Assembly: GCA_021646465.1 (NCBI GenBank)
Contig: SOET01000003.1
Span: 1-64,000 of the forward strand
Length of the DNA: 64,000 nucleotides
Origin: Candidatus Kuenenia hertensis
GTDB lineage: Bacteria; Planctomycetota; Brocadiia; Brocadiales; Brocadiaceae
Reading direction: 5' to 3'
Shown: positions 2,783 to 43,264 of the stretch, piece after piece
Numbering within the stretch: the stretch's first letter is position 1
How the letters are laid out: each line of letters begins with the position of its first letter
Notes under the pieces: model-generated
Seen by the model: the letters and a program-made list of their open reading frames with translations, nothing else
Told to the model about the DNA's origin: nothing
Databases searched by the model: none
Translations under genes and position numbers: made by a program

Positions 2783-4687
2783 ATGAATGACCATCTAAGA
2801 ACAAAAAATATTTTATGGCGTTACTTTTTCCTGAGTTATGCCGCGCTGCTTATCAATACCCTGTTTTATTTAAGACAAATCCATTATAGCGGCATGATAA
2901 CAATCCTGTTTGGCCTTTCAATTTATTTTTTGTACAGTTTCATTTATCTTTTCCTGATATTTATTCCTGTCATAATCCTCAAGGTACTCGTACGAATATT
3001 GTTTCAAAGTCAGGATTGGTTATCTGTCAAGCACTGGTGTCAAAAGGCAGTTTTCGGCGTTGCCATTGTGTTGTTTACTTTCGTACAACTGTTTATTTAT
3101 ACCGACAAACAAATCTTTAAACTGTATCACTTCCATATTAACGGATTTGTATGGAACCTTATTACAACACCAGGCGGCATAGAGTCGATGGGGAACAACG
3201 ATTCTACCATTTTCAGCACGGCAATGATCGTTGCCGGTTTTTTTGTTCTGCAAATATTTCTTTTTTTCGTAGCAAAATCGGAAATACTGCAAAAAATTTT
3301 CTCCGGACTGCAAAAAGTTCAGTTTAAAAGAGTGTTTATTGGTTTTATTGTTCTGATCTTTAACTTTCAATTCTTTACTTACGGCATTAGCCATCTTGAG
3401 GCCAATACCCCGGTGTTGTGCGCGTCCAATGCCCTTCCGCTCTATATTCCGGTTACCTTTAAGAGTTGGGCTAAAAAGTTTGGCGTTTTACCGAAAAGGA
3501 CTGCGCTGCTGAAGCTTGATAAAAAAACTTCCCAACTCCATTATCCGCTGCAGCCAATTCAATATGATTGGGTTGAACCAAACTATAATATCGTCTGGCT
3601 TGTTGCCGAATCATGGCGGGCCGATATGTTGAATGATACTGTCATGCCGAAAACATTTGATTTTGCAAAAAAATCTGTATGGTTTGCCAATCATTATAGC
3701 GGGGGCAACGGTACGAGAATGGGACTTTTCTCAATGTTTTACGGCCTTTACGGGAACTATTGGTTTGACTTTTTACATCATCGAAAGGGGCCGGTTTTCA
3801 TAGACAGGCTTATTGAACAAAACTATCAGATGGAGTTATTTACCAGCGCCAAATTTTCCTATCCGGAGTTTGATAAGACCCTCTTTGCCAGTATTCCTGC
3901 TGACAATCTGCATGAATACTGCAAGGGGTTAAGCGGATGGGAAAATGACCGCAGACATGTTACCGCAATGCTTGATTTTTTGGAGCACAGGGACAGAGCC
4001 AGGCCGTTCTTTACCTTTATGTTCTTCGAATCGCCCCATGCAAGATACTATTTTCCGGAAGAGTCTGTTATCAAAACCCCTTTTCTGGAAAACATGAATT
4101 ACGCTACGATAGATATTGAAAAAGATATCGAACTCATTAAAAACCGTTATATTAACTCTTGTTATCACCTCGATTCACAACTGGGCAGAATACTGCACTA
4201 CCTGGAATCGAATCAACTCCTTGAAAGCACCATTGTTATCATAACCGGGGACCATGGCGAGGAGTTTATGGAGAAAGGTTACTGGGGGCACAATTCTGCC
4301 TACACTGAAGAACAGCTTTGTGTCCCTCTGGTGCTCTGGCTGCCTGGGCAACAGCCGCAGGTTGTGCAAAAAATGACCAGCCACCTTGATATCCCAGCGA
4401 CACTCATGCCGCTTTTGGGCGCAAAAAATCCCGCAAGCGACTATTCGCTGGGACACAATCTCTTTGAACCCCCGGAGAGAGTATACACAATCGCTTGCGA
4501 TTGGGATAGTCTTTGCTACATCAATCATCACTACAAAGCGGTCTTTCCGCTGCAATCGTATAATTTTCTTAAGCAGACAGTTACGGACGAAGCAGACCGG
4601 GAAATTGTTAACAGAACGGGGTTCTTTCGGGCATCACAAAATGATCTTGCGCTTATAATGACAGAGATCAGGAAGTTCAGTAAATGA
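2783..4687 (+). CDS. PbgA/YejM-like inner-membrane sulfatase-fold protein
   Basis: 634 aa. The N-terminal third is a bundle of about five transmembrane helices like the DUF3413 region of PbgA/YejM (LapC). The remainder is a periplasmic alkaline-phosphatase/sulfatase-fold domain. Metal-site candidates in the LtaS/PbgA arrangement are E276 (VAESWRADML), T311 (GGNGTRMGLFSMFYG), and D490-H491 (TGDHGEEF) followed by GYWGHNSAYT. PbgA senses lipopolysaccharide and controls LpxC in enterobacteria; relatives transfer or hydrolyse phospho-headgroups. ATG 2783 is preferred over an upstream TTG at 2759 because GGAG lies about 11 bases before it. The gene is translationally coupled by overlap with the next one, opening an envelope-lipid operon. 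Confidence 0.85.
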   Translation: MNDHLRTKNILWRYFFLSYAALLINTLFYLRQIHYSGMITILFGLSIYFLYSFIYLFLIFIPVIILKVLVRILFQSQDWLSVKHWCQKAVFGVAIVLFTFVQLFIYTDKQIFKLYHFHINGFVWNLITTPGGIESMGNNDSTIFSTAMIVAGFFVLQIFLFFVAKSEILQKIFSGLQKVQFKRVFIGFIVLIFNFQFFTYGISHLEANTPVLCASNALPLYIPVTFKSWAKKFGVLPKRTALLKLDKKTSQLHYPLQPIQYDWVEPNYNIVWLVAESWRADMLNDTVMPKTFDFAKKSVWFANHYSGGNGTRMGLFSMFYGLYGNYWFDFLHHRKGPVFIDRLIEQNYQMELFTSAKFSYPEFDKTLFASIPADNLHEYCKGLSGWENDRRHVTAMLDFLEHRDRARPFFTFMFFESPHARYYFPEESVIKTPFLENMNYATIDIEKDIELIKNRYINSCYHLDSQLGRILHYLESNQLLESTIVIITGDHGEEFMEKGYWGHNSAYTEEQLCVPLVLWLPGQQPQVVQKMTSHLDIPATLMPLLGAKNPASDYSLGHNLFEPPERVYTIACDWDSLCYINHHYKAVFPLQSYNFLKQTVTDEADREIVNRTGFFRASQNDLALIMTEIRKFSK

Positions 4688-5898
4688 TGAGGATAAAGCT
4701 GTTCATTGGAAAATTTCTCTCTCCGGGAATGGGTGTTTTGCTCTTTTTGTTCATACTTTTTTTGTTTGTCTTTGAACTATACGCATGTTTCCTGCAGTAT
4801 TTTGAGGGAAGTAAGAAATTACCGCCGCTTTCCGGCAATTTTACGCACGTCAGAGAAATATTGACACAGGAAAAACCAAAGGAAGAATTCTGCTTTGCCG
4901 TTATCGGCGATACGAAAAGCACGGGCACGTTCGAAAAAATTGCCGATAAATTAAGAAAAGAATCATTATCGTTTGTTGTCTTTCTCGGAGACTTTGTTCG
5001 CCTGGGCACAGAAGGCGAACATAACTATTTCAGGGCGGAATTAGCTGGTGAATTTGCATTTCCTTTCCCAACATTTTTTCTTGTTGGGAATCACGATGTC
5101 GATGTGAATACCTTTCCTATATCGAGATTTGAGGAGGTATACGGACCAAGTATCTTTTCCTTTGTCTATCAGGACTGTTTGTTTATCTTCCTCCGAATAC
5201 TGGACAAACCACATTCCACAAAAGAGAGTCTCCAATTCCTGGAAAAGTGTATTTCTGAAAATGCTTCATCAAAATACAGAAAGATATTTGTACTTTCCCA
5301 TATCCCTCCTCCCATATCTGAGAGCTTTGACGTCAGAGAATTTGAAGGTTCAAAGAAATTTGTTTCACTTGTAGAAAAACTGCAGGCAGATTATGTAATA
5401 TGCGGTGATTATCATGGGTATGCACGGATTAAGAAAGGAAATACCGTGTATCTTGTTACGGGTGGAGGCGGTGCACACCTTAAAGATAATAAATATGGCT
5501 GTTTTCACCATGCAATGGTCATAACGGTTTCGGAAAATAGTGTGTCTGAACAGATACTCTTTGTAGACAGAAATGAAGATATCGAAGACAGGATAGAACG
5601 GTTTATTTTGGCGGATATGTATCCGTGGTTCAGGAATCATTTCATTATCGTTTCTTTACTTAATAGTATGCTGTTTGTGTGTTGTATTATTATTTTTAGG
5701 AAAATAAAAAACAATCGAACAAGGAGTCATTTATGGTTGAGAATATGGTATTGGCAGTCACCTGGTTTGGCAAACAACATCGTCTGTTCGGGCTTGATTG
5801 GAGTTATCTTACGATTCTTGGGTTTATTGGCAACGCAGTCTTCTCAACACGGTTTTTTGTGCAATGGGTTGCTTCGGAAAAGAAAAAGCAAAGCGTAA
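4684..5898 (+). CDS. Membrane-anchored metallophosphoesterase
   Basis: 404 aa as read. A first transmembrane helix (about 15-37) is followed by a calcineurin-like phosphoesterase domain with IGDTKS (D76), VVFLGDF, LVGNHDVD, VLSHIPPP and CGDYHGY. A second hydrophobic segment lies near residues 312-337. The first motif is D-T-K rather than D-x-H, so one usual metal ligand is replaced. It starts in the overlap with the PbgA-like gene. The last 60 residues are suspicious: they run for 166 bases inside the next gene in another frame. One base removed from the T-run at 5693-5697 would end the protein at 5707, just before the next ribosome-binding site. The substrate is unknown; a lipid or phospho-headgroup is plausible from context. 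Confidence 0.85.
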   Translation: MMRIKLFIGKFLSPGMGVLLFLFILFLFVFELYACFLQYFEGSKKLPPLSGNFTHVREILTQEKPKEEFCFAVIGDTKSTGTFEKIADKLRKESLSFVVFLGDFVRLGTEGEHNYFRAELAGEFAFPFPTFFLVGNHDVDVNTFPISRFEEVYGPSIFSFVYQDCLFIFLRILDKPHSTKESLQFLEKCISENASSKYRKIFVLSHIPPPISESFDVREFEGSKKFVSLVEKLQADYVICGDYHGYARIKKGNTVYLVTGGGGAHLKDNKYGCFHHAMVITVSENSVSEQILFVDRNEDIEDRIERFILADMYPWFRNHFIIVSLLNSMLFVCCIIIFRKIKNNRTRSHLWLRIWYWQSPGLANNIVCSGLIGVILRFLGLLATQSSQHGFLCNGLLRKRKSKA

Positions 5899-6098
5899 TT
5901 CCCGTCTCATTCTGGTATTGGAGTATTGCGGGAAGCGTAATTATGTGCGTCTATTGGATTATGGAACGAAGCCCTGTAGGGATACTGGCCTACCTGCCTA
6001 ATTCATTGATCTATATGCGCAACCTCCATTTAATAAGACAACATAAGCTTGCGGCAACAGCATCTGCTCCCATACAAACCCCGCTTGAGGAAAGCTGA
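5733..6098 (+). CDS. Lipid A biosynthesis N-terminal (LAB_N) domain protein
   Basis: 121 aa membrane protein consisting of a LAB_N domain only: three to four short helices with ILGFIGNAVFSTRFFVQWV, SVIPVSFWYWSIAGS and LAYLPNSLIYMRNL. The domain was named from LpxB-associated proteins and is often found beside glycosyltransferases that modify lipid A or undecaprenyl-linked sugars. Here it stands alone in the PbgA/phosphoesterase operon. An AAGGAG ribosome-binding site at about 5719 supports the ATG. The first 166 bases are also read in another frame as the tail of the metallophosphoesterase. Confidence 0.85.
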   Translation: MVENMVLAVTWFGKQHRLFGLDWSYLTILGFIGNAVFSTRFFVQWVASEKKKQSVIPVSFWYWSIAGSVIMCVYWIMERSPVGILAYLPNSLIYMRNLHLIRQHKLAATASAPIQTPLEES

Positions 6099-6108
6099 GA
6101 AAGCGTCT

Positions 6109-6759
6109 ATGGAAAATGCGACGAAAACCTATGATGACTTCTGGTCGTCAGAATTAAAATATAACCGAAAGCAGAGAAATAAAAGCTGGTTTCGGCGTAA
6201 ACGGTACAAATGGTTAAGCCATGTGTTTCCGCGTTTAGCCATGAAATGCGGTTTTGCAAAAAAATACCATCAGGGCGTTGTTTCTCTTGCGGAAGGATTT
6301 TTCTGCGATCTGGGGTGCGGTTTGGGAGCCTGCATTGGTCTTTATGCGGCTTCCGCAGGGTTGCCTGCCGTAGGGGTGGATGCGTCTGTCAATGCACTTT
6401 CATATGCCAATTCGGAGAAAAAAAGGATGCGTTTACATTATATCTATTTTATTGCCGGCAACCTCTTTGGCACGCCATTTAAAAACGATTGTTTTGATAC
6501 TGTCTATCTCGGACAGGTATTGGAACATGTTGAAGATGAAGTAAAAGTTGTAAAAGAAGCCGTTCGCATACTTAAACCCGGTGGAAAATTAATTGTCTCC
6601 GTTCCCAAAGAAGACCTCTTGCCGAGTCCCTACCATGTGAGAACATACACTGCAAAAGATTTAAAATCACTTCTCAGCCCGTATACTTATGGAGAAATAC
6701 TGTTTTATTCCTTTGATGACAGAAGATTTGTTGTGTCACTGAAGGTTGCCAAAAAATAG
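6109..6759 (+). CDS. SAM-dependent class I methyltransferase
   Basis: 216 aa from the ATG at 6109, chosen over an ATG at 6049 that would overlap the LAB_N gene by 50 bases. The N-terminus MENATKTYDDFWSSE resembles a Methyltransf_11-type protein. Motif I is FFCDLGCGLGA, an acidic residue follows in VGVDAS, motif II/post-II is CFDTVYLGQVLEHVEDE, and RILKPGGKLIVSVP is the classical post-III segment. It is the last gene of the envelope operon, so the acceptor may be a lipid or glycan, but the sequence does not say which. Confidence 0.88.
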   Translation: MENATKTYDDFWSSELKYNRKQRNKSWFRRKRYKWLSHVFPRLAMKCGFAKKYHQGVVSLAEGFFCDLGCGLGACIGLYAASAGLPAVGVDASVNALSYANSEKKRMRLHYIYFIAGNLFGTPFKNDCFDTVYLGQVLEHVEDEVKVVKEAVRILKPGGKLIVSVPKEDLLPSPYHVRTYTAKDLKSLLSPYTYGEILFYSFDDRRFVVSLKVAKK

Positions 6760-16582: not shown

Positions 16583-19500
16583 CTATTTATTTACCTTAAC
16601 CTTCAAAGTGCCCTTTGCATTTTCCGTTTTGAAGCGTACTCTTGCTGATCCTTTTTTATTTAATGCGGTAACGGTAAATACTGCCTCGCCCTGTGAATCC
16701 GTCCTTCCTTTTTCTGGCGAAACAGTTATCCGTTTTTTACCGGATTTGTTTATATCTACGCTGATCGATTCGTCTGTTACCAGGCAGCCGTCTTCTCCTG
16801 TTACTATTACCGTTACCTCACTGCTCCCATTTTTGTCAAGTTTCAATCTTCGGGGAGATACCTCAACATCTTCGTCAGTGCAAACATAAGGTGTTGGCGT
16901 AATTGACGGTGTCGGGGCTGCGTCTATTACAGAGGCAGTATCGGTTACCAGCATTACCGAGCCGGTGGTGTTAATGTCATCAATGTACAACGCCGTTAAC
17001 GTATCACCCATACCTGCCTGAATGTGGTCATATTCCAGCGAGCCTCCGCTTTTTGCCACAAGAACCGCCCCGGTAAATATGCCCGTATCCGTTCCGGTTT
17101 CAACCATTCGTACCTTTGTGGAGTTAAATCGGGAGGTTTGTACAAAAACACTGTCATTAAGAAATTCAGCTTCCGTGTGGTTGGTATTTTGCTCGGCATC
17201 TGCCAGTATTATGCCAATAAAGGATCCCGTAATGCATGTATCATCATCAAATGTAATCTTTGCATTAAAACTGCTGAACGTTAGTTCTTCGGAAATTTCT
17301 GTGCCCGGTGGCGCCGTATCGGCGTAAGTTACGGTTGCCGTTCCATCCTGTACCGTTTTTAACGTACCGATATTTGCCCTTTCGTTTGAATCCGCACCAC
17401 CTGAGGTTGTGGTACCAGTTCTGATGGTGGCAAGGAATGTGCCGCTGTCAACGCCATCCTCGTACAAATCAAGCAGCAGATCATCCCCGGAGTAATAGTT
17501 TACGCCAACTACCTTCATTGCGGTTGTAAGCACGTCCTCCGATGTTGTGTCTGTATTTCTGTCAGAATCAACTACCGTAACAACTACAGTATCGCCGGAA
17601 AGAAACGCCTTCATTTTGCTCAGGGAAAGACTACCGGTAATGCCTTGCACTGATGTGGGTGATGGTGAAGGAAGCGGTGAAGGTGAAGGGAATAGGGTGA
17701 GTGTTGGGGAAACTGTTGCTGTGGGAGTAATTGTAGCGGCAACAGTTGGTGTTGGGTTTACGGTGAGTACAGGTGTTGGAGTTGGTACCGGCGCAGATTC
17801 GGTGGTAAAACTCCAGCTATAATTAGAACTTAAGGTGGTTCCCGCATAATTTGCTGCCTGCGCACCGGTGGTAATTGTTGCCTGATAGGTGGTATTATAG
17901 TCAAGGTTTTCTGACGGAGTGAATGTTGCGGTGCTTCCGTTCGTGGATACTATCCCGCTGACATTGCCGCTGCTTCCGCTCAGGAAAAAGGTATCGGTAG
18001 TGAGCGTGGAACCGTTCATTGTAAGGCTAAAAGTGGCAGTGACTGATGTAGTGACAGAAACCCCGCTTGCCCCGTTAGAAGGGCTTACCGATGTCACAGA
18101 AAGGGTTACGGTGGGAGGCGGTTCGCTTGGAGGAGTAACGGGAGTTTCCTCCTCTGATTCCAGCGAAACCTTAGCGATGAAGGCGCTGCTGTAGTTTTCT
18201 TCCAGCCATCCGGTGGTTGTTCCTGCTATAGGAAAATTTGACGATTCCGTCTCCCCTGTAATATACGCAGAACCCGAAGTGTCCACTGTGATTCCATAGC
18301 CATTATCATTATCACCGCCTCCAATATAAGTGGAATAGGCAATTTCCTCTCCTGTAGTTTCTAGCTTTGTCAAAAAAGCAGAATAAACGTCAGCTGCATG
18401 AGGGGCAACAGTAGTCGTTCCCACAACGGGAAAATCGGAGGAGTACGTATAACCTGTTACATAGGCAGAGCCGGAACCATCCACGGCAATTGCATTGCCC
18501 TGATCTTCTCCGCTTCCGCCAAGGTAGGTGGAGTAGGCGAATTCTACAGGCGTCCCGGTGCCGAGTTTTGTGATATATGCATCGTAAGAGCCTCCACCAT
18601 AAGGGGTGTTAGTACCAGCAAGAGGAAAATCTTCAGATTCGGTATATCCCGTAATGTAGGCATATCCGTTGCTATCCACAGCAATTCCCCGTGCAAAATC
18701 AGCACTCATACCTCCAATGTAAGTGGAATATTCCAGTGTATCTCCGGCGGCATTAAACTTTGCGGCAAAGGCATTGCTTGCTTCTTCACTGGATCTGTCT
18801 GTCTCTGTTCCTACTTCGGGAAAATCCTCGTTGGAACCAGTTTCTCCTGCTATGTATGCAGCCCCGGAACTATCCACTGCGATTGCATACCCCTGATCAT
18901 CCCAGCTTCCTCCAAGGTAGGTTGAATAAACAAGCTCAACTGGCGTTCCTGTTCCGAGTTTTGTTACAAAGGCATCGTAACCCAATTCTCCATTTTTGAC
19001 TGTATCAGTTCCCAAAACGGGGAAATCATTGGAATCGGTATATCCGGTTATGTAAGTATATCCGTTGTTATCCACAGCGATTCCTTGTGCAATATCCCAG
19101 TCGCCAGTTCCCCCGATGTAGGTGGAGTATTCGATGGTATTGCCAGTAGCATTGAGCTTTGTTATAAAGGCATCACGGGTTCCCTGAAGTGATGATGCTG
19201 TTCCCACTACGGGAAAGTTGCTGGATTCCGTGTATCCGGTAATATAAGCAGAGCCGGTTTCATCCACGGCGATTCCGTAGCCATAATCATCATCACTTCC
19301 CCCTATATAAGTAGAGTAAATAAACTCCAGTGGTGACTCCGTGCCGAGTTTTGTAACAAAAGCATCATAGGTAGACGTACCGTTATTTTTGGTAGTATCT
19401 GTTCCTGCTATGGGAAAATCAGCAGATGCCGTGTAACCAGTTATATATGCAGCCCCCGAACTATCCACAGCAATTCCGCGTCCTACATCGTCCTCCAATC

Positions 19501-20536
19501 CCCCGATGTAGGTGGAATATTCGAGAATGACGGGGTCAATGATGAGTGAATGGGATTTATTATAGGCAGCGACCTTGAAACCGTAAGTAAATCGTTCTTC
19601 GTTAGTATTTGTCCCCATTTGTATGGGATGAGGGAAAAAACTTTGCATCATGCATTCCATATCCTGCAACACGAACTTTCCTTCCACTTCCACATGCTTT
19701 CCGTTAATCTCCTGATACACGTAAGGTCGTTTCTGAGTGATCTTTTTTTCTGTATTTGAGCCGTTGAAATTGTTTGAACTGTTTTTTACAATAATTTCCA
19801 GATCGCCGTTTTCGTTTACCCGCAGGTCTTCTATTCCTTCGCATGCAAACCTGACCAGTGAGGGGTCTGCGCCTGGTTTCACGATAATATCGTATTCGAG
19901 CTGACGGTTGTTGCCGTAAAATCTGATGTCGATACCTTCGTATATTTCGCGGTAAACAATTGCGCTATAGGTAGGGATATTCGTTCTCCATTTTTCCTGA
20001 TTACCGATAAAATAGTTTACTTTCCCCTGCTGCAATCCTTCGGCTATTATCTCCGGGTGTTTATTGGCGCCAACAGGAATAAGGCTGACGAATGCGGAGT
20101 AAGAAATAGTATTTTCGGGTTTGAGTGACAAATACACCCCCTCTTTCGTAAAGAATATGGCATGACCGCTGCCCCTTTCATAGAATTCAGCCCTTTCATC
20201 CATCTGCCCGTCATTTTGTATAAAGTAAAGGGGTATTTCACCGTAAGGTAGTGGTGCATGGGTTTTATGCATTGCAGCATCAGTGAATGGCAAACAAACG
20301 TGTCCCTGCATATTTCTGCTCAGGAGTTTGTCTGCGCCATTCTGCCGTGATTTATCCTGACCGGCTGCAAGGGGTACGCAGCGCCCATTTATTGTAATGA
20401 CCGGATGGCGGTATTCTTCACTACCCCAATCAGGTATAACCGGAGCGTCCGTATCCATTCCAAATCCGGTTTCCGTGCATATCCATACCGCCGTTAAAAT
20501 CACAATCAATGCGTAAAAGAATCGTGGTCCGTGCAC
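16583..20536 (-). CDS. Giant secreted SBBP beta-propeller protein with Ig-like domains
   Basis: 1317 aa. A signal peptide (about 1-26) is followed by a globular region containing YFIQNDGQMDERAEFYERG, then seven SBBP repeats of about 55-60 residues with the pattern YSTYIGG...DDxGxGIAVDxSGxAYITGYTxSxDFP. Seven copies suit a seven-bladed propeller. Then come a Big_5 Ig-like domain (TLSVTSVSPSNGASGVSV), a PTPTP/PSPSP-rich linker, two beta-rich modules with DSGTFLATIRTGTTTSGG-like segments and a C-terminal Ig-like domain. It probably sits on the cell surface. The start is GTG with AAGGAG six bases upstream. Its repeats are also visible at the DNA level. Confidence 0.9.
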   Translation of the reverse strand: MHGPRFFYALIVILTAVWICTETGFGMDTDAPVIPDWGSEEYRHPVITINGRCVPLAAGQDKSRQNGADKLLSRNMQGHVCLPFTDAAMHKTHAPLPYGEIPLYFIQNDGQMDERAEFYERGSGHAIFFTKEGVYLSLKPENTISYSAFVSLIPVGANKHPEIIAEGLQQGKVNYFIGNQEKWRTNIPTYSAIVYREIYEGIDIRFYGNNRQLEYDIIVKPGADPSLVRFACEGIEDLRVNENGDLEIIVKNSSNNFNGSNTEKKITQKRPYVYQEINGKHVEVEGKFVLQDMECMMQSFFPHPIQMGTNTNEERFTYGFKVAAYNKSHSLIIDPVILEYSTYIGGLEDDVGRGIAVDSSGAAYITGYTASADFPIAGTDTTKNNGTSTYDAFVTKLGTESPLEFIYSTYIGGSDDDYGYGIAVDETGSAYITGYTESSNFPVVGTASSLQGTRDAFITKLNATGNTIEYSTYIGGTGDWDIAQGIAVDNNGYTYITGYTDSNDFPVLGTDTVKNGELGYDAFVTKLGTGTPVELVYSTYLGGSWDDQGYAIAVDSSGAAYIAGETGSNEDFPEVGTETDRSSEEASNAFAAKFNAAGDTLEYSTYIGGMSADFARGIAVDSNGYAYITGYTESEDFPLAGTNTPYGGGSYDAYITKLGTGTPVEFAYSTYLGGSGEDQGNAIAVDGSGSAYVTGYTYSSDFPVVGTTTVAPHAADVYSAFLTKLETTGEEIAYSTYIGGGDNDNGYGITVDTSGSAYITGETESSNFPIAGTTTGWLEENYSSAFIAKVSLESEEETPVTPPSEPPPTVTLSVTSVSPSNGASGVSVTTSVTATFSLTMNGSTLTTDTFFLSGSSGNVSGIVSTNGSTATFTPSENLDYNTTYQATITTGAQAANYAGTTLSSNYSWSFTTESAPVPTPTPVLTVNPTPTVAATITPTATVSPTLTLFPSPSPLPSPSPTSVQGITGSLSLSKMKAFLSGDTVVVTVVDSDRNTDTTSEDVLTTAMKVVGVNYYSGDDLLLDLYEDGVDSGTFLATIRTGTTTSGGADSNERANIGTLKTVQDGTATVTYADTAPPGTEISEELTFSSFNAKITFDDDTCITGSFIGIILADAEQNTNHTEAEFLNDSVFVQTSRFNSTKVRMVETGTDTGIFTGAVLVAKSGGSLEYDHIQAGMGDTLTALYIDDINTTGSVMLVTDTASVIDAAPTPSITPTPYVCTDEDVEVSPRRLKLDKNGSSEVTVIVTGEDGCLVTDESISVDINKSGKKRITVSPEKGRTDSQGEAVFTVTALNKKGSARVRFKTENAKGTLKVKVNK

Positions 20537-36205: not shown

Positions 36206-36928
36206 TTAAAGTCTTAAGTTTTCTTTTAAAATTTCTCTTTTCAGGTGGGTAATAGAACCTGTCGGATTCAGGTCTTTCGGGCAGACTTCCTGGCAATTAA
36301 ATACTGAATGGCAGCGCCAAACTCCCTTCTCACTATTTACAAGGGCCAACCGCTCCTCCTTTGCTCCATCGCGGCTATCGGAGACAAATCTGTCGATGTT
36401 GAGTAAAGACATTGGGCCAAGATAGTCTTCATGCGTTGCCGTCACAGGGCACGAGGAATGGCAGCATGCGCACAATATACAGTCTATTAATACGTCCAGT
36501 TTCGCTCTTTCATCCGTGCTCTGTATTCGTTCTCTCTCCGAGGGTGAAGGTTTTCCCGGCATGAGGTACGGTTTGATTTGCTCATATTTATCCCAAAACG
36601 GTTTCATATCGACAAAAAGGTCTTTCTGTATTGCCATATGGGCGAGAGGACGAACGGTAACAGTCTTTGTATTCAATTTGGAAATGAGGGTATTACAGGC
36701 GAGCCGGTATTTTCCGTTAATGTGCATGGCACAGGAGCCGCAAACGGCTGCCCTGCATGATGAACGAAATGCGAGAGAATGATCCATGCGTTGCTGAATG
36801 TAAACAAGGCCTTCCAGCACTGTGAGTTCTTTTCTCGTGAACGGTATTTCATAGTTCTGAAAATACGCTTGCTTATCGCTGACCGGATTAAACCGAAAGA
36901 TATTAAAAAAAACGGTATCGTTTGTCAT
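36206..36928 (-). CDS. sdhB: Succinate dehydrogenase/fumarate reductase iron-sulfur subunit
   Basis: 240 aa. The N-terminal ferredoxin domain has the [2Fe-2S] ligands in SSCRAAVCGSCAMHINGK and LACNT. The C-terminal domain has CILCACCHSSCP for [4Fe-4S] and the CHSVFNCQEVCPKDLNP cysteines for the [3Fe-4S]/[4Fe-4S] pair. All canonical Cys are present. No flavoprotein or membrane-anchor subunit is nearby, although these normally form one operon. The gene overlaps ftsY by an ATGA and is presumably co-transcribed with it. Confidence 0.92.
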   Translation of the reverse strand: MTNDTVFFNIFRFNPVSDKQAYFQNYEIPFTRKELTVLEGLVYIQQRMDHSLAFRSSCRAAVCGSCAMHINGKYRLACNTLISKLNTKTVTVRPLAHMAIQKDLFVDMKPFWDKYEQIKPYLMPGKPSPSERERIQSTDERAKLDVLIDCILCACCHSSCPVTATHEDYLGPMSLLNIDRFVSDSRDGAKEERLALVNSEKGVWRCHSVFNCQEVCPKDLNPTGSITHLKREILKENLRL

Positions 36929-38220
36929 TGTTCTAATAAAGTATCCACAAACAAGTCAGGGTTAAATTTCTCGATATCATCTGCCTGTTCTCCTAGTCCG
37001 ATAAATTTGACAGGGATTTTTGTTTCATTGCACATGCCAAGTACAATGCCACCTTTTGCCGTGCCATCCAGTTTTGCCAGAAATATTCCGGTGACGTCTA
37101 CGGTTTCTTTAAACATTTTTGCCTGTGAAATCGCGTTTTGCCCGGTGGTGGCATCAAGCACCATCAATACCTCATGCGGCGCATCGGGAATTTTTTTCGA
37201 AATAACCCGTTTTATTTTCGTGAGTTCTTTCATCAGATTATCGTGAGTATGAAGTCTTCCCGCAGTATCCACAATTAAAACGTCGATTTCCCTTGCAATG
37301 CTTGCTTCCAGGGCATCATACGCTACTGCTGCGGGATCAGAACCTGTCTGATGCTTTACGATATCGGCCCCGATACGTTTACACCAGATATTCAGCTGGT
37401 CTACTGCTGCTGCCCGGAAAGTATCACTTGCGGCAAGCATTACTTTTTTACCTTCCTTTATAAAAGAATTTGCAAGCTTCGCTATGGAGGTGGTTTTGCC
37501 TACGCCGTTAACGCCTACTACCATAATGACCGTAGGCGGTTTATTTGCGTACTTAATATCCGTCTGCCACCGGTGCAAGTCTTCCTTCAGCCGTTTTTTT
37601 ATAAAATCATTTATTTGCGATGTTTCGCTAATTGTTTTCTCTTTCCATGCTTCATGTATTTCTTCGATAAGTTTTTGTACGGGACGTGCCCCCATATCAG
37701 CTCCAATGAGAATATCTTCCAATTCTTCAAGTACCGACTCGTCGATGCCTTTTCTGAACGATAAAAATCCTTTTAACCTTGACCAAAAGCGACCCCGTGT
37801 CTTTTCGAGTCCTTTCTTTAACTTACTTGGTACAACAACAGGTTCTTTTCTTACTACCGGTACTTCTTTCTCAATTTTTTTCTCTTTTACAACCGGTTTT
37901 TCTTTTATCTCCTCAACAACCGGCTTTTCTTTTGGAATGGTAACGGGTTTTTCCGGCGGCGCTTTCTCTATTACAGCCGTAGCAGCAACAGGTTTTTCCG
38001 GAGGGGCTTTTTCTATTACGGCTGTCTCAGAAGGAACAGGACGTTCAGCCACTTTTTCTTTAAAAACAGGCGCCTGTTCAATGGGCACGAGCCGTATTCT
38101 GCCATCTTCTATAACGACTGTTTTCTTCGGTTCAACAGTATAGTTTATAATACGGTACCAAAGACTTTTTTTGGTTTTTTTGGTATCGTTCGCTATTTCG
38201 CTCTTTTGTGTTTTTCCCAT
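36925..38220 (-). CDS. ftsY: Signal recognition particle receptor FtsY
   Basis: 431 aa. An N-terminal acidic/Pro-rich region (about 1-130) includes a repeated EKAPPEKPV unit, followed by the NG GTPase domain: GVNGVGKTTSIAKLA (G1), AASDTFRAAAVDQL, DTAGRLHTH (G3), TKLDGTAKGG (G4) and the C-terminal IPVKFIGLGEQADDI. It docks SRP-ribosome complexes on the inner membrane. The repeated A-domain is longer and more repetitive than usual. It overlaps sdhB downstream and follows nusB-PHP at a 63-base gap. Confidence 0.95.
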   Translation of the reverse strand: MGKTQKSEIANDTKKTKKSLWYRIINYTVEPKKTVVIEDGRIRLVPIEQAPVFKEKVAERPVPSETAVIEKAPPEKPVAATAVIEKAPPEKPVTIPKEKPVVEEIKEKPVVKEKKIEKEVPVVRKEPVVVPSKLKKGLEKTRGRFWSRLKGFLSFRKGIDESVLEELEDILIGADMGARPVQKLIEEIHEAWKEKTISETSQINDFIKKRLKEDLHRWQTDIKYANKPPTVIMVVGVNGVGKTTSIAKLANSFIKEGKKVMLAASDTFRAAAVDQLNIWCKRIGADIVKHQTGSDPAAVAYDALEASIAREIDVLIVDTAGRLHTHDNLMKELTKIKRVISKKIPDAPHEVLMVLDATTGQNAISQAKMFKETVDVTGIFLAKLDGTAKGGIVLGMCNETKIPVKFIGLGEQADDIEKFNPDLFVDTLLEQ

Positions 38221-38283: not shown

Positions 38284-39552
38284 TCAATTGTTGCTGCATC
38301 TTTGCTTCAGCAGTTTTACGAGGTTGCCAGATATAGTAACTTTTGCTATCGGATTGTCAACCTTTCTTTCTCCGTGAAAGTCTGAGCCTCCGGTCACTAC
38401 AAGATTATATTTTTTTGCCAGTTTGAGGTATTTTTCCACGGTTGTTTTTGTATATGTGGGATAATATGCCTCTATTCCCTGCAAACCATATTTTACAAGA
38501 TCTTCAATAACATTATCCCGTTGTGTAAGTCCGGGGTGAGCCAGCACCGGCACTCCTTTTGCTCCTCTTATTAATTCAATGGCCTCTCGCGGAGTTAATG
38601 TTTTTTTAGGAACATAAGCAGGTGCTTTATCGCCAATGTATTTATAAAATGATTCCAACAATGTTGTGGTGTATCCATTGCGCCAGATTATTTCCGCCAT
38701 ATGCATGCGTCCAGGAGTTCCTTCTCCTGCAAGATCTAATACCTCTAAGGGATTTATGTTGACACGAAGACCGCGGAGTTTTTCCGTCATTGCATAAATA
38801 CGTTCAACTCTGTCTTTGCGTGCTTTTTTTATTACTTCGTTTAATGCATCATTATGGATATCAATAAAATAACCTAAAATGTGTATTTCCGAAGGGTCAA
38901 GAAAGGAAGAAATTTCAATACCGGGAATGATATAAAGTTTTTTCCCGTTTTTGTATGCCTCCGCCCTCAAAAATCCCTGAATAGTATCATGATCGGTAAT
39001 GGCGATTGCGGATAAACCCAATCGTATGGCTTCATCAACTACTTCTTCCGGTGTTGTTGTACCATCGGAATAATTTGTGTGTATGTGTAAGTCGGAAATG
39101 CCAAAAACGGTTTCCTTTTCCTCTTTTGCTGTGTCAGCCGTTTTTTTGTTTCTCAAGGAGTTATATACTTTATCTAAAACACCATTAACAAACATTCCGG
39201 AATCTTTGGTGCTGAATTTTTTGGCAAGTTCTATAGCTTCATTAATAGAAACCTTTGGAGGGATATCATCCCTGTAGAGCAATTCATACACGCCCAGTCT
39301 CAGGATATTTTTGTCAATGATGGCCATTCGGTGCAAATCCCAGTTTTCCGCGGAAAGTGAAATTTTTTCATCGATTTCTACCCTGTGCGATATACAGCCC
39401 GTGATAAGCGACAAGGCAAACTTATATATATCTGGTTTTTCAGCTTTCTGCCTGCAGAATTCTTCTATTTCTTTTTCCGTTTCTTCTCCGCGTAAATCAA
39501 GCAGATATAAAGCTTGAATGGCAAGTTCGCGGGCAAATGTTCTGTTGCGCAT
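38284..39552 (-). CDS. nusB: NusB fused to a PHP-domain phosphoesterase
   Basis: 422 aa. Residues 1-140 are a complete NusB: RNRTFARELAIQALYLLDL, DKNILRLGVYELLY, PPKVSINEAIELAKKF and FVNGVLDKV. NusB with NusE forms part of the rRNA antitermination complex. After a 12-residue charged linker, a PHP domain begins at D154-L-H156-I-H158-T, followed by ITDHDTIQG, IPGIEISSF, VLAHPGL and GSDFHGE, all metal-ligand motifs of the YciV/RNase AM-like branch (5'-3' exonuclease or nucleotide phosphatase). The join is in frame with no stop or frameshift. The upstream neighbour is ribH, as is usual for nusB. Confidence 0.93.
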   Translation of the reverse strand: MRNRTFARELAIQALYLLDLRGEETEKEIEEFCRQKAEKPDIYKFALSLITGCISHRVEIDEKISLSAENWDLHRMAIIDKNILRLGVYELLYRDDIPPKVSINEAIELAKKFSTKDSGMFVNGVLDKVYNSLRNKKTADTAKEEKETVFGISDLHIHTNYSDGTTTPEEVVDEAIRLGLSAIAITDHDTIQGFLRAEAYKNGKKLYIIPGIEISSFLDPSEIHILGYFIDIHNDALNEVIKKARKDRVERIYAMTEKLRGLRVNINPLEVLDLAGEGTPGRMHMAEIIWRNGYTTTLLESFYKYIGDKAPAYVPKKTLTPREAIELIRGAKGVPVLAHPGLTQRDNVIEDLVKYGLQGIEAYYPTYTKTTVEKYLKLAKKYNLVVTGGSDFHGERKVDNPIAKVTISGNLVKLLKQRCSNN

Positions 39553-39705: not shown

Positions 39706-40170
39706 TTATATTTGATCAAAGAGATTTACCATTTCTATAGCCGATAAAGCAGCTTCTGTGCCTTTGTTGCCTGTTTTTGCACCAGCACGGTCAATTGCCT
39801 GTTCCAGTGTTTCTGTTGTAATAATGCCATAGATGGTTGGTACTCCGGATGACAAACCAATCTGCGTAATGCCTTTTGCGGATTCACTGGCAACAAAATC
39901 GAAATGTGGTGTTTCCCCGCGGATAATTGCCCCAAGGCAAATAACTGCATTGTACATTCCGCTTTGTATTACCTTTTGGGCGGCAATTGGAATTTCGTAA
40001 GCACCAGGTACCCAAAAAATACCAACATCCTCTTCTTTTACACCATGTCTTACAAGTCCATCAATTGCACCTTCCAGTAATCGTTTTGTAATAAAACTGT
40101 TATATCGACTCACGATAATTCCAAAAGTCTTGCCCGTACCGATTAATTTTCCCTGATATTCAACGCCCAT
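39706..40170 (-). CDS. ribH: 6,7-dimethyl-8-ribityllumazine synthase
   Basis: 154 aa, the usual size. It condenses ribityl-aminopyrimidinedione with dihydroxybutanone phosphate in riboflavin synthesis. Visible motifs are [44 protein letters not shown] and [15 protein letters not shown], including the catalytic His in ETPHFD. It lies immediately upstream of nusB-PHP, the classic ribH-nusB order, separated by 153 bases. Confidence 0.95.
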
Positions 40171-40436: not shown

Positions 40437-41783
40437 GTGGATATAACAGGGGAAGAGGAAGAGTACAGGAAAATCGAAGAGGCCAGGATGCCGCTGGGTT
40501 CGCATCTGGAAGAATTGCGACGCAGGGTCTTTTATTCTATTATCGCGATTATTTTGTGTTTCATAATGTGCTGGGTCTTTAAGCTGCATATTATGGATAT
40601 AATGAAGCGGCCCCATGGAATTGCCATGCGCAAATTAGGACTTTCCACTGAATTACAAGTATTAAGCTATCAGGAAGGTTTTTACGCATACATGAAGTTG
40701 TGCTTCATTAGTTCTCTTTTCTTAATGTATCCCGTTATCATTTATCAGGCATGGAAATTCGTCAGCGCGGGATTGTTTGCGAAGGAAAAAAAATACATTC
40801 TCGTTTTCTTTCCGGTTTCATACATCGCATTCGTTATGGGGGGGCTTTTTGGATATTATTTACTGATCCCCTTTGGTTTGCAATTTTTAATAAGTATATT
40901 AGGCCCCGATATTCAGCCCATTATCACAATGCAGCAATACGTGTCGTTTGTTTTCTTGCTGACAGTTGCACTTGGGTTAGTATTTCAACTCCCTCTTGTA
41001 ATGCTGCTTTTGTCAAAGATAGGATTTGTATCTGCTGATAAATTTGTCAAGTGGAGAAAATATTCGATCCTTGCAATTTTTATTATTGCCGCCATAGTAA
41101 CACCACCAGACCCTTTTACCCAAACAATGACCGCCGCCCCAATGATCCTGCTTTATGAATTAGGAATACTTGTAGCAAAACCAACAAAAAGAGGATTTAT
41201 TCTGTTGGGAACGGTTGTTGGGTTCAGCATAATTGCCATGACGGTGGCATATTTTTACTTTACCCATAAACGCAGGATAATTGATCTTTCTCATACTTAT
41301 GGAAATATGCAATTACAACAGGGCGAAGACCAGAAATGGAAAAATATATCAATGATTGACAGCTTGCATAGCGGCGTTACTCTCAAAACCGGAAACGGAG
41401 AAAAGGCTTCATTTTCTACGAAAAAAGGAATTGACATACACATGGATTCAAATACAGAAATGAGCTTTGTTAATCCATGGAAAATTAACGTCAAAAAAGG
41501 GCAACTGTTTATCTCTCTGGAAAAGTTGAAAAAAAATCTGGAAATTTTTACCCCGAATGGGAAAATGGTAACAAATAACGGCATTTTTAATCTCCGGATA
41601 ACAGATTACGTTACCATTGTAACTGCGGTAAAGGGAGAGGCCACATTGCTGGCGGAGGGTGAGGAAAAAAAATTACTGGAGGGCAGACAGCGCAAAATGA
41701 CAATAGGGGGAGAACCAGTGGATATTCATTCCATAATTGATTGGTCCGAAGGCATCATACCGGACACACAGGAAAAGAAATAA
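40437..41783 (+). CDS. tatC: TatC with a C-terminal FecR-like domain
   Basis: 448 aa. Residues 1-255 are TatC, the twin-arginine translocase receptor: MPLGSHLEELRRRVFYS at the cytoplasmic N-terminus, six transmembrane helices, FFPVSYIAFVMGGLFGYY, and SILAIFIIAAIVTPPDPFTQ. A further helix (about 262-282) is followed by about 165 soluble residues with FecR/LPS-inner-core-type features: LHSGVTLKTGNGEKASFS, GIDIHMDSNTEMSFV, and NLEIFTPNGKMVTNNGIFNL. No stop separates the parts. The start is GTG; no better start lies downstream before the conserved region. No tatA or tatB is present here. Confidence 0.9.
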   Translation: MDITGEEEEYRKIEEARMPLGSHLEELRRRVFYSIIAIILCFIMCWVFKLHIMDIMKRPHGIAMRKLGLSTELQVLSYQEGFYAYMKLCFISSLFLMYPVIIYQAWKFVSAGLFAKEKKYILVFFPVSYIAFVMGGLFGYYLLIPFGLQFLISILGPDIQPIITMQQYVSFVFLLTVALGLVFQLPLVMLLLSKIGFVSADKFVKWRKYSILAIFIIAAIVTPPDPFTQTMTAAPMILLYELGILVAKPTKRGFILLGTVVGFSIIAMTVAYFYFTHKRRIIDLSHTYGNMQLQQGEDQKWKNISMIDSLHSGVTLKTGNGEKASFSTKKGIDIHMDSNTEMSFVNPWKINVKKGQLFISLEKLKKNLEIFTPNGKMVTNNGIFNLRITDYVTIVTAVKGEATLLAEGEEKKLLEGRQRKMTIGGEPVDIHSIIDWSEGIIPDTQEKK

Positions 41784-41839
41784 AATCTTTTTACAGTTTT
41801 TGTAAACGTAATCGTTGAAGTTCGTTGAAAGGGATTCAA

Positions 41840-43264
41840 ATGTATAAATCAGTAAAACTGCAAAATTACCTAACGGCATACGCTGCTATGATTTTTTTTT
41901 CCATAATATTTTTGCAAAACTATGTGCTAGCGGCATGGTCTGCCAGCTCTCAGATGAATACGGCAATTTGTACGGCTTCGGGACAGCAAAGCGCAATTCA
42001 GGTAATTAGTGACGGTACTGGTGGAGCCATTATAGTATGGGAAGATACGCGCAATGTTCATTTTGATATCTTTGCACAGCGAATTGATGCAAAGGGAAAT
42101 GTCATGTGGGAGGAGAACGGTGTACCTGTATGCCTGGCGGAAGAAAACCAGAAACTGCCAAAAATTATCAGCGATGGCGCGGGCGGTGTTATTATCACTT
42201 GGCACGATTTGCGCAGTGGCATTACTAACAGTGATATTTACGCGCAAAGAATTGATGTAAATGGAAATCCCATGTGGAAGACAGATGGAATTCCGGTATG
42301 TGATGAAATTAATGAGCAAGACAGCCCATGTATTGCTACAGATAGCGCAGGTGGCGCTATTATCATATGGCAGGATAGCAGGACAAATTATGACGATTTG
42401 TATGCCCAGCGTATCAATAATAATGGAGAGATGTTGTGGGAAAAAAATGGCGTTCCTGTCTGTTGGGTTTTTGGAGCACAAAGCGCTCCCGTCACGGTAG
42501 ACGATGGCCATGGTGGTGCAATAGTGGCCTGGCAGGACTTCAGGAAAAGTTATGCCGATATCTATGCTCAGCGAATCGACGGCAGCGGCAGGATTTTATG
42601 GGAAAAAACCGGCGTTAATGTATGCGGAGCCCGCGGACATGAAAGTTATCCTGTTATCATCAGTAATGGCGCCGAAGGTGCAATTGTAGCCTGGATGGAT
42701 ATGCGTAACGATAATAACGACATTTTCGCACAACAACTGGATGGTAACGGGAATATATTGTGGGAAGTAGATGGAATTCCAGTTACCACTGCGCAGGAAA
42801 AGCAAGATTACCCCGTAATGGTAACTGACGGCGCCGGGGGGGCTATTATTGCATGGTGGGATTTGCGCAGCGGTAAATATGATGTTTATACTCAGCGTAT
42901 TGATTTGACGGGCAACCCATTGTGGAAGGATGATGGATTGCCCGTATGCATGGAAGATGGTATTCAAAATTATGTATCACTCACTGCGGATGGTGTAGGC
43001 GGTGCTATTCTGGCATGGAATGATAGCCGCGCCTCGTTATTTGATATTTATGCGCAAAGAATCGATTCAAATGGTAATGCTCAATGGAATAATAACGGCG
43101 CTCCTGTAAGCACCGCAAGTGAGACGCAATGTTATTCAGCAATTGTGAGTGATGGCAAAGGCGGAGCGATTATCGTATGGCAAGATGAACGTAACACAGA
43201 TAAGAGTTATTGGGATATCTATGCCCAAAAGATAAATGCAGCGGGACTATTGGGTGCTCAATAA
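41840..43264 (+). CDS. Secreted repeat protein, probable beta-propeller
   Basis: 474 aa from the ATG at 41840, supported by GAAAGGG upstream; an in-frame TTG at 41825 is less likely. The signal peptide is AAMIFFSIIFLQNYVLA. The rest is about eight repeats of about 50 residues with the pattern SDGxGGAIIxWxDxRxxxxDIYAQRIDxNGNxxWxxxGxPVC. Eight copies suggest a propeller with seven or eight blades. It is an extracytoplasmic protein of unknown role, downstream of the tatC fusion. No twin-arginine motif is seen in its signal peptide. Confidence 0.85.
   Translation: MYKSVKLQNYLTAYAAMIFFSIIFLQNYVLAAWSASSQMNTAICTASGQQSAIQVISDGTGGAIIVWEDTRNVHFDIFAQRIDAKGNVMWEENGVPVCLAEENQKLPKIISDGAGGVIITWHDLRSGITNSDIYAQRIDVNGNPMWKTDGIPVCDEINEQDSPCIATDSAGGAIIIWQDSRTNYDDLYAQRINNNGEMLWEKNGVPVCWVFGAQSAPVTVDDGHGGAIVAWQDFRKSYADIYAQRIDGSGRILWEKTGVNVCGARGHESYPVIISNGAEGAIVAWMDMRNDNNDIFAQQLDGNGNILWEVDGIPVTTAQEKQDYPVMVTDGAGGAIIAWWDLRSGKYDVYTQRIDLTGNPLWKDDGLPVCMEDGIQNYVSLTADGVGGAILAWNDSRASLFDIYAQRIDSNGNAQWNNNGAPVSTASETQCYSAIVSDGKGGAIIVWQDERNTDKSYWDIYAQKINAAGLLGAQ

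Follow-up and report, generated by a model that had tools for sequence, protein, structure and literature searches.

We identified an open reading frame in which a complete NusB and a complete YciV/RNase-AM-like PHP domain are encoded in a single frame. It lies in a 64,000-nucleotide stretch of the Candidatus Kuenenia hertensis genome (contig SOET01000003.1, positions 1 to 64,000; hereafter the window; Table 1). The join is real and ancient, and it is a new domain architecture built from two known families; our literature search found no publication on a NusB-PHP fusion, and one could exist beyond the literature searched. We tentatively read the protein as the bifunctional, single-copy NusB of the anammox bacteria (Brocadiales), with a PHP half that would serve pre-rRNA, a serious possibility that we would still not call probable.

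A NusB-PHP fusion conserved in Brocadiales

The N-terminal half was matched by PF01029 over residues 7–130 (E 8e-37, Pfam) and by TIGR01951 at 143.6 bits (cut-off 88.35; positions 2–130 of the 131 in the model covered), and PF02811 (PHP) was matched from residue 154 (E 2.5e-14), above its cut-off. A phmmer search against the PDB matched the PHP half to 3e0f, 9etk, 7ug9 and 2yb1 and returned matches for NusB too. The original prediction, made from the DNA letters, had placed an in-frame fusion here, with a full NusB and a full PHP domain carrying all metal motifs. Each of these claims was confirmed, as the open reading frame is present and recurs in the same frame in 54 + 9 relatives, both NusB models are above their cut-offs and, on the PHP side, every metal ligand is present.

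Table 1 Features of the fusion locus in the window and of the rrn operon (locus L197) of the same genome.
Feature	Sequence	Position	Strand	Details and basis
Whole NusB-PHP fusion ORF	Window	38284..39552	-	422 aa, ATG start
NusB domain, residues 1-132	Window	39157..39552	-	PF01029, TIGR01951, Foldseek 3r2c, dN/dS
Variable linker, residues 133-152 (20 aa)	Window	39097..39156	-	Length variation, pLDDT, dN/dS
PHP phosphoesterase + insertion domain, residues 153-422	Window	38287..39096	-	PF02811, sub-cut-off NF047791/NF041577, Foldseek, invariant residues
ribH (lumazine synthase), directly upstream of the fusion	Window	39706..40170	-	PF00885; conserved neighbour
ftsY, directly downstream of the fusion	Window	36925..38220	-	PF00448 + PF02881; conserved neighbour in Planctomycetota
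boxA-like site, 12/13 positions	L197	772-784		116 nt before 16S
boxA-like site, 13/13 positions	L197	2881-2893		61 nt before 23S

The protein is predicted to be two folded domains joined by a flexible linker. AlphaFold2, run on 27 fusions, gave a mean pLDDT of 90.8 and a pTM of 0.64, with pLDDT below 50 in one segment only (fusion residues 138–146), and the distance from residue 130 to the first PHP Asp varied from 16 to 43 amino acids, without conservation across fusions. Using Foldseek, with the two halves matched separately, the PHP half was closest to 3e0f, 9etk and 2yb1 (TM 0.82–0.85 by target length), with 7ug9 also among the closest folds, and the NusB half aligned to the NusB of the NusB-NusE-boxA complex 3r2c at TM 0.90 by target length. 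The N-terminal half therefore has the same full-length fold as known NusB, passes the curated cut-off and comes from a genome with boxA in its rrn operon; what sets it apart is a 270-aa enzymatic C-terminal extension. Within the genus of the window (comparison with G002), dN/dS was 0.13 in NusB and 0.11 in PHP, so that both halves are under purifying selection, as compared with 0.55 in the linker.

The original prediction had proposed looking for the same fusion in Planctomycetota, and the search turned it up in 54 genomes of the order and 9 of the class. Among Brocadiales families f1–f4, each genome with the whole locus has the single-frame fusion (n = 54, 50–88% identity). At class level, the fusion occurs in families f8 and f9 (9 genomes, about 40–43% identity), and in f6 and f7 nusB and PHP are separate but adjacent. 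In f5 (Anammoxibacter), one genome has the two genes separate and adjacent, 192 bp apart (G036), and another has them on different contigs (G039). The pair is also adjacent in ten further Planctomycetota (G106, G109, G128, G144, G158, G172, G186, G199, G220 and G240); in others, PHP and nusB are apart or nusB has no PHP beside it. Two separate genes in relatives of other families are what one might see had an error of assembly or sequencing merged two genes in the window, and the original prediction had itself named separate genes, together with a sequencing error at the junction, as grounds for rejecting the fusion. Separate genes were indeed seen in several relatives, but the frame is kept in 63 fusions. 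These come from many independent assemblies, single-contig ones included (nearly all of the genomes compared are metagenome-assembled), and the linker has diverged yet remained in frame. An artefact is thus refuted, and its probability is negligible.

In the PHP tree, many deep forks of which are open, the 19 Brocadiales fusions cluster in a single clade (SH-aLRT 97) that neighbours the unfused f5, and the f8/f9 fusions group with the unfused G109. This topology suggests two fusion clades, and a single origin is not rejected (p-AU 0.33).

The active site of the PHP half

Two models scored the PHP half best, and equally so: NF047791 (RNase RNM/AM), at 155.2 bits against a cut-off of 375, and NF041577 (3′,5′-nucleoside bisphosphate phosphatase), at 152.3 bits against a cut-off of 400. 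Both scores are below the cut-off. In RNase AM, the 5′-phosphate pocket consists of R107, R110 and R141, with F161 as the stacking residue (PMC9410882). None of the four residues varies across the fusions, either in Brocadiales (39/39) or at class level (9/9); in the window protein they are R248, R251, R282 and F302. The RNase AM metal site (D20, E72, D255, H257 and the His ligands) is invariant in the same proteins. The pocket and F161 are also invariant in 19/19 PHPs from riboflavin (rib) operons, one of whose rows in the active-site alignment ends ahead of D255, and in 8 Omnitrophota PHPs from outside the rib operon. The pocket can change in the PHP family, as half of the six PHPs of the group ‘planctOther’ have K and Q in place of R107 and R110. 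Considering the invariant metal ligands and 5′-phosphate pocket, the PHP half very probably acts as an enzyme on a 5′-phosphorylated nucleotide. Such a pocket would suit 5′-phosphorylated RNA or pAp, and would suit ARAPDP badly; as it is common to pAp phosphatases, it does not single out RNA.

Compared with RNase AM (E. coli YciV, 7ug9; Vibrio, 9etk), the PHP half has the same fold, insertion domain, metal ligands, 5′-phosphate pocket and F161, and its sequence is about 31% identical with that of 9etk and 23% with the 7ug9 PHP domain, but it falls below the NF047791 cut-off, lies elsewhere in the tree and is joined to NusB. It likewise shares the fold, metals and AMP-binding pocket of the 3′,5′-nucleoside bisphosphate phosphatase CV1693 (2yb1, NF041577), while scoring below the NF041577 cut-off and having no cys genes at its locus. 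The best structural match was BAD_1165 from Bifidobacterium adolescentis (3e0f, 3o0f; TM 0.85 by target length), which has the same pocket and, unlike the fusion, stands alone; its PDB description is only ‘putative phosphoesterase’. In the tree, again with many deep forks open, 7ug9, 9etk and 2yb1 cluster together in a starred group of their own, apart from the fusions, and the fusion PHPs do not group with E. coli RNase AM. Accordingly, the original assignment to the YciV/RNase AM branch stands as regards fold, active site and 5′-phosphate pocket, and fails on the NF047791 cut-off and on tree grouping. Relatives of the PHP half that adjoin cysC (APS kinase) were found in Omnitrophota (L155–L157, L159, L163 and L164, some of these loci also with an apparent APS/PAPS reductase) and in Planctomycetota (L209, L210 and L215). 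They are plausible candidates for pAp phosphatases and form a separate clade (SH-aLRT 98).

Gene order and alternative functions

The gene order in Planctomycetota is ribH-nusB(-)PHP-ftsY, extended in two planctomycetes to ribH-nusB-PHP-ftsY-ribD-ribE (L193 and L213), and the order ribH-nusB is kept in nearly all loci examined. In Omnitrophota (the phylum of L056), we found the operon ribBA-ribH-nusB-PHP-ribD-ribE. Its rib genes were assigned from their similarity to proteins of L056 that we had identified, on inspection by eye, as RibBA, RibD and RibE. In Omnitrophota, nusB and PHP are adjacent, usually within 50 bp, in 118 of the 130 genomes with both among the matches listed; another 19 genomes have PHP and no NusB among the matches listed. 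Joined tblastn hits at first suggested a NusB-PHP fusion in Omnitrophota as well; ORF mapping resolved these to separate neighbouring genes, as they are wherever ORFs were mapped in this phylum. Several planctomycetes and Omnitrophota have nusB without a neighbouring PHP. Since nusB and PHP are long-standing operon neighbours in sister lineages, the fusion is most simply explained by this conserved gene order, and it probably began as the loss of a stop codon between neighbours of the ribH-nusB-PHP operon. Often found in riboflavin operons, nusB is considered to play no part in riboflavin biosynthesis (PMC5312566), so both the adjacency and the fusion may lack functional meaning.

Where the operon is broken, PHP is found with ribD (G379) or with ribD-ribE (G327), nusB and ribH being elsewhere, in nusB-PHP-ribD-ribE (G325), or with ftsY alone (G039 and G148). 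These breaks fall on both sides of PHP and so do not decide between NusB and the riboflavin genes as its partner. In the genome of the window, ribD (L198) has no match to NusB, to PHP or to any other rib reference protein beside it. Comparing the occurrence of PHP and RibH across Omnitrophota genomes does not discriminate either, as RibH is near-universal there (184/189 genomes, with or without PHP).

Three other genes of the window were noted for their domains or repeats. Positions 40437–41783 (+) encode TatC with a C-terminal FecR-type domain, an architecture that recurs in Brocadiales relatives (L054, L055 and L098); in the window itself, the FecR match is slightly under the Pfam cut-off. 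At 41825–43264 (+) lies a 479-aa protein with many tandem repeats of the form GGAIIVWQDxR...DIYAQRID..G..LW..G.PVC and a weak Pfam match to DUF1491 only, and at 16583–20536 (-) a protein of 1317 aa in which DUF7948 and a Big_5 domain accompany seven SBBP beta-propeller repeats.

Two other accounts of the PHP half have to be weighed against a role in pre-rRNA. One holds that it is a general housekeeping enzyme requiring a 5′-phosphate (a pAp phosphatase, a nanoRNase acting on short 5′-phosphorylated oligonucleotides, or both), and that the join is a tolerated loss of a stop codon with no link to rRNA. The tie between the pAp-phosphatase and RNase AM models is in keeping with this, as is a pocket identical to that of CV1693, and the cysC neighbourhood of close PHP relatives is the context expected of a pAp phosphatase; the clade formed by those relatives is, however, separate from the fusions. 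Most Omnitrophota genomes have a single match of this PHP kind, as a housekeeping enzyme might, yet some fused genomes carry a second, unfused PHP (G064, G071 and G072). Fusion would also come easily to adjacent pairs with short gaps, nusB being common in rib operons (PMC5312566), but no fission of the fusion was seen in any of the 54 order-level f1–f4 genomes where it was found. On balance, we consider this account possible and somewhat doubtful.

The other account makes the PHP half the riboflavin phosphatase that converts ARAPDP to ARAPD between RibD and RibH, with NusB a mere neighbour and the fusion incidental. As of 2025, the ARAPDP phosphatase was unassigned except for HAD enzymes and the IMP and histidine phosphatases of Aquifex, and PHP is not mentioned among ARAPDP phosphatases (PMC12051542). 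The Omnitrophota operon has every rib enzyme except this phosphatase, and the extended planctomycete loci, as well as the breaks in which PHP stays with ribD or ribD-ribE, fit such a role. Against it, PHP separates with ftsY alone in the two genomes noted above, and a group of Omnitrophota loci (L135–L142) have ribBA-ribH-nusB-ribD(-ribE) operons without PHP, so that the phosphatase step there must be done by something else. The RNase AM/CV1693 pocket and its Phe are moreover invariant in the rib-operon PHPs, and the one phosphate of ARAPDP would presumably occupy the metals, leaving the pocket without a purpose. We regard a riboflavin function as unlikely. A PHP half that serves pre-rRNA, the reading we prefer, has observations against it too: the sister family f5 keeps nusB and PHP apart, and PHP falls below the RNase AM cut-off and ties with the pAp-phosphatase model.

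The rRNA context of the fused NusB

The fused NusB is the only one in the genome apart from a match to an RsmB-like protein, a 470-aa ORF with a NusB domain on contig C9. RsmB-like proteins likewise join a NusB-type domain to an rRNA-related enzyme, the partner domain being, we assume, a methyltransferase; they have no PHP. The single rrn operon (L197, on contig C78) consists of 16S (888–2477), two tRNAs, 23S (2942–5941) and 5S (6006–6115), with a boxA-like site ahead of both 16S and 23S (Table 1). Across the order, a boxA-like TGNTCTTTRAAAA was matched at a minimum of 11 of 13 positions in 27/30 Brocadiales-order leaders, as compared to 1.2% of background windows (scan range 40–160 nt before 16S). 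In E. coli, boxA occurs in the leader and before 23S and is bound by NusB; in one model, boxA is anchored to NusB near the RNA exit channel while the rRNA loops out (PMC10250234). RNase AM is named among the RNases that process 23S (PMC10250234), and an essential role in rRNA processing is ascribed to its activity (PMC9410882). Our nuclease survey covered RNase J alone: 0/39 Brocadiales-order genomes had a TIGR00649 match over the cut-off, versus 9/14 control genomes. Given that the fused NusB is the only one besides the RsmB-like match and that the rrn operon has boxA sites, a physical tether between the fusion and pre-rRNA is likely to exist. The original prediction had gone further, proposing a link between rRNA transcription and 5′ processing; the physical join agrees with this, and the simpler operon origin and the rival functions count against it.

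A NusB-tethered, rRNA-directed nuclease is plausible, although the activity of PHP, its substrate and its rRNA role are inferred. In such a protein, the N-terminal half would still function in antitermination, binding the boxA of pre-rRNA together with S10, and the C-terminal half, on its flexible linker, would be an active PHP phosphoesterase with a trinuclear metal centre that holds a 5′-phosphorylated nucleotide and cleaves the phosphoester on its 3′ side, as RNase AM and CV1693 do. With NusB on boxA, roughly 116 nt before 16S or 61 nt before 23S, PHP would be kept beside the leader and spacer RNA. Endonucleolytic cleavage would create 5′-monophosphate ends, from which PHP could degrade the leader fragments, trim 5′ ends or both, taking the part that RNase AM has in E. 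coli. As NusB at boxA would keep the exonuclease there, leader degradation and 5′ trimming would be coupled to transcription of the same operon. That the anammox antitermination complex carries a built-in 5′-phosphate-dependent exonuclease at boxA, coupling these steps to rrn transcription in genomes where RNase J was not found, is a speculative proposal that we consider rather less than probable.

Both the rRNA and the riboflavin idea can be tested on the fusion and on the gene pair. Should PHP belong functionally to the riboflavin operon, the PHP family would supply a candidate for a step that still lacks a dedicated enzyme in most bacteria. If PHP instead acts on pre-rRNA, rRNA antitermination and 5′ processing would be physically coupled within one protein in anammox bacteria, and the fusion would offer a natural tether for timing 5′ trimming relative to transcription.
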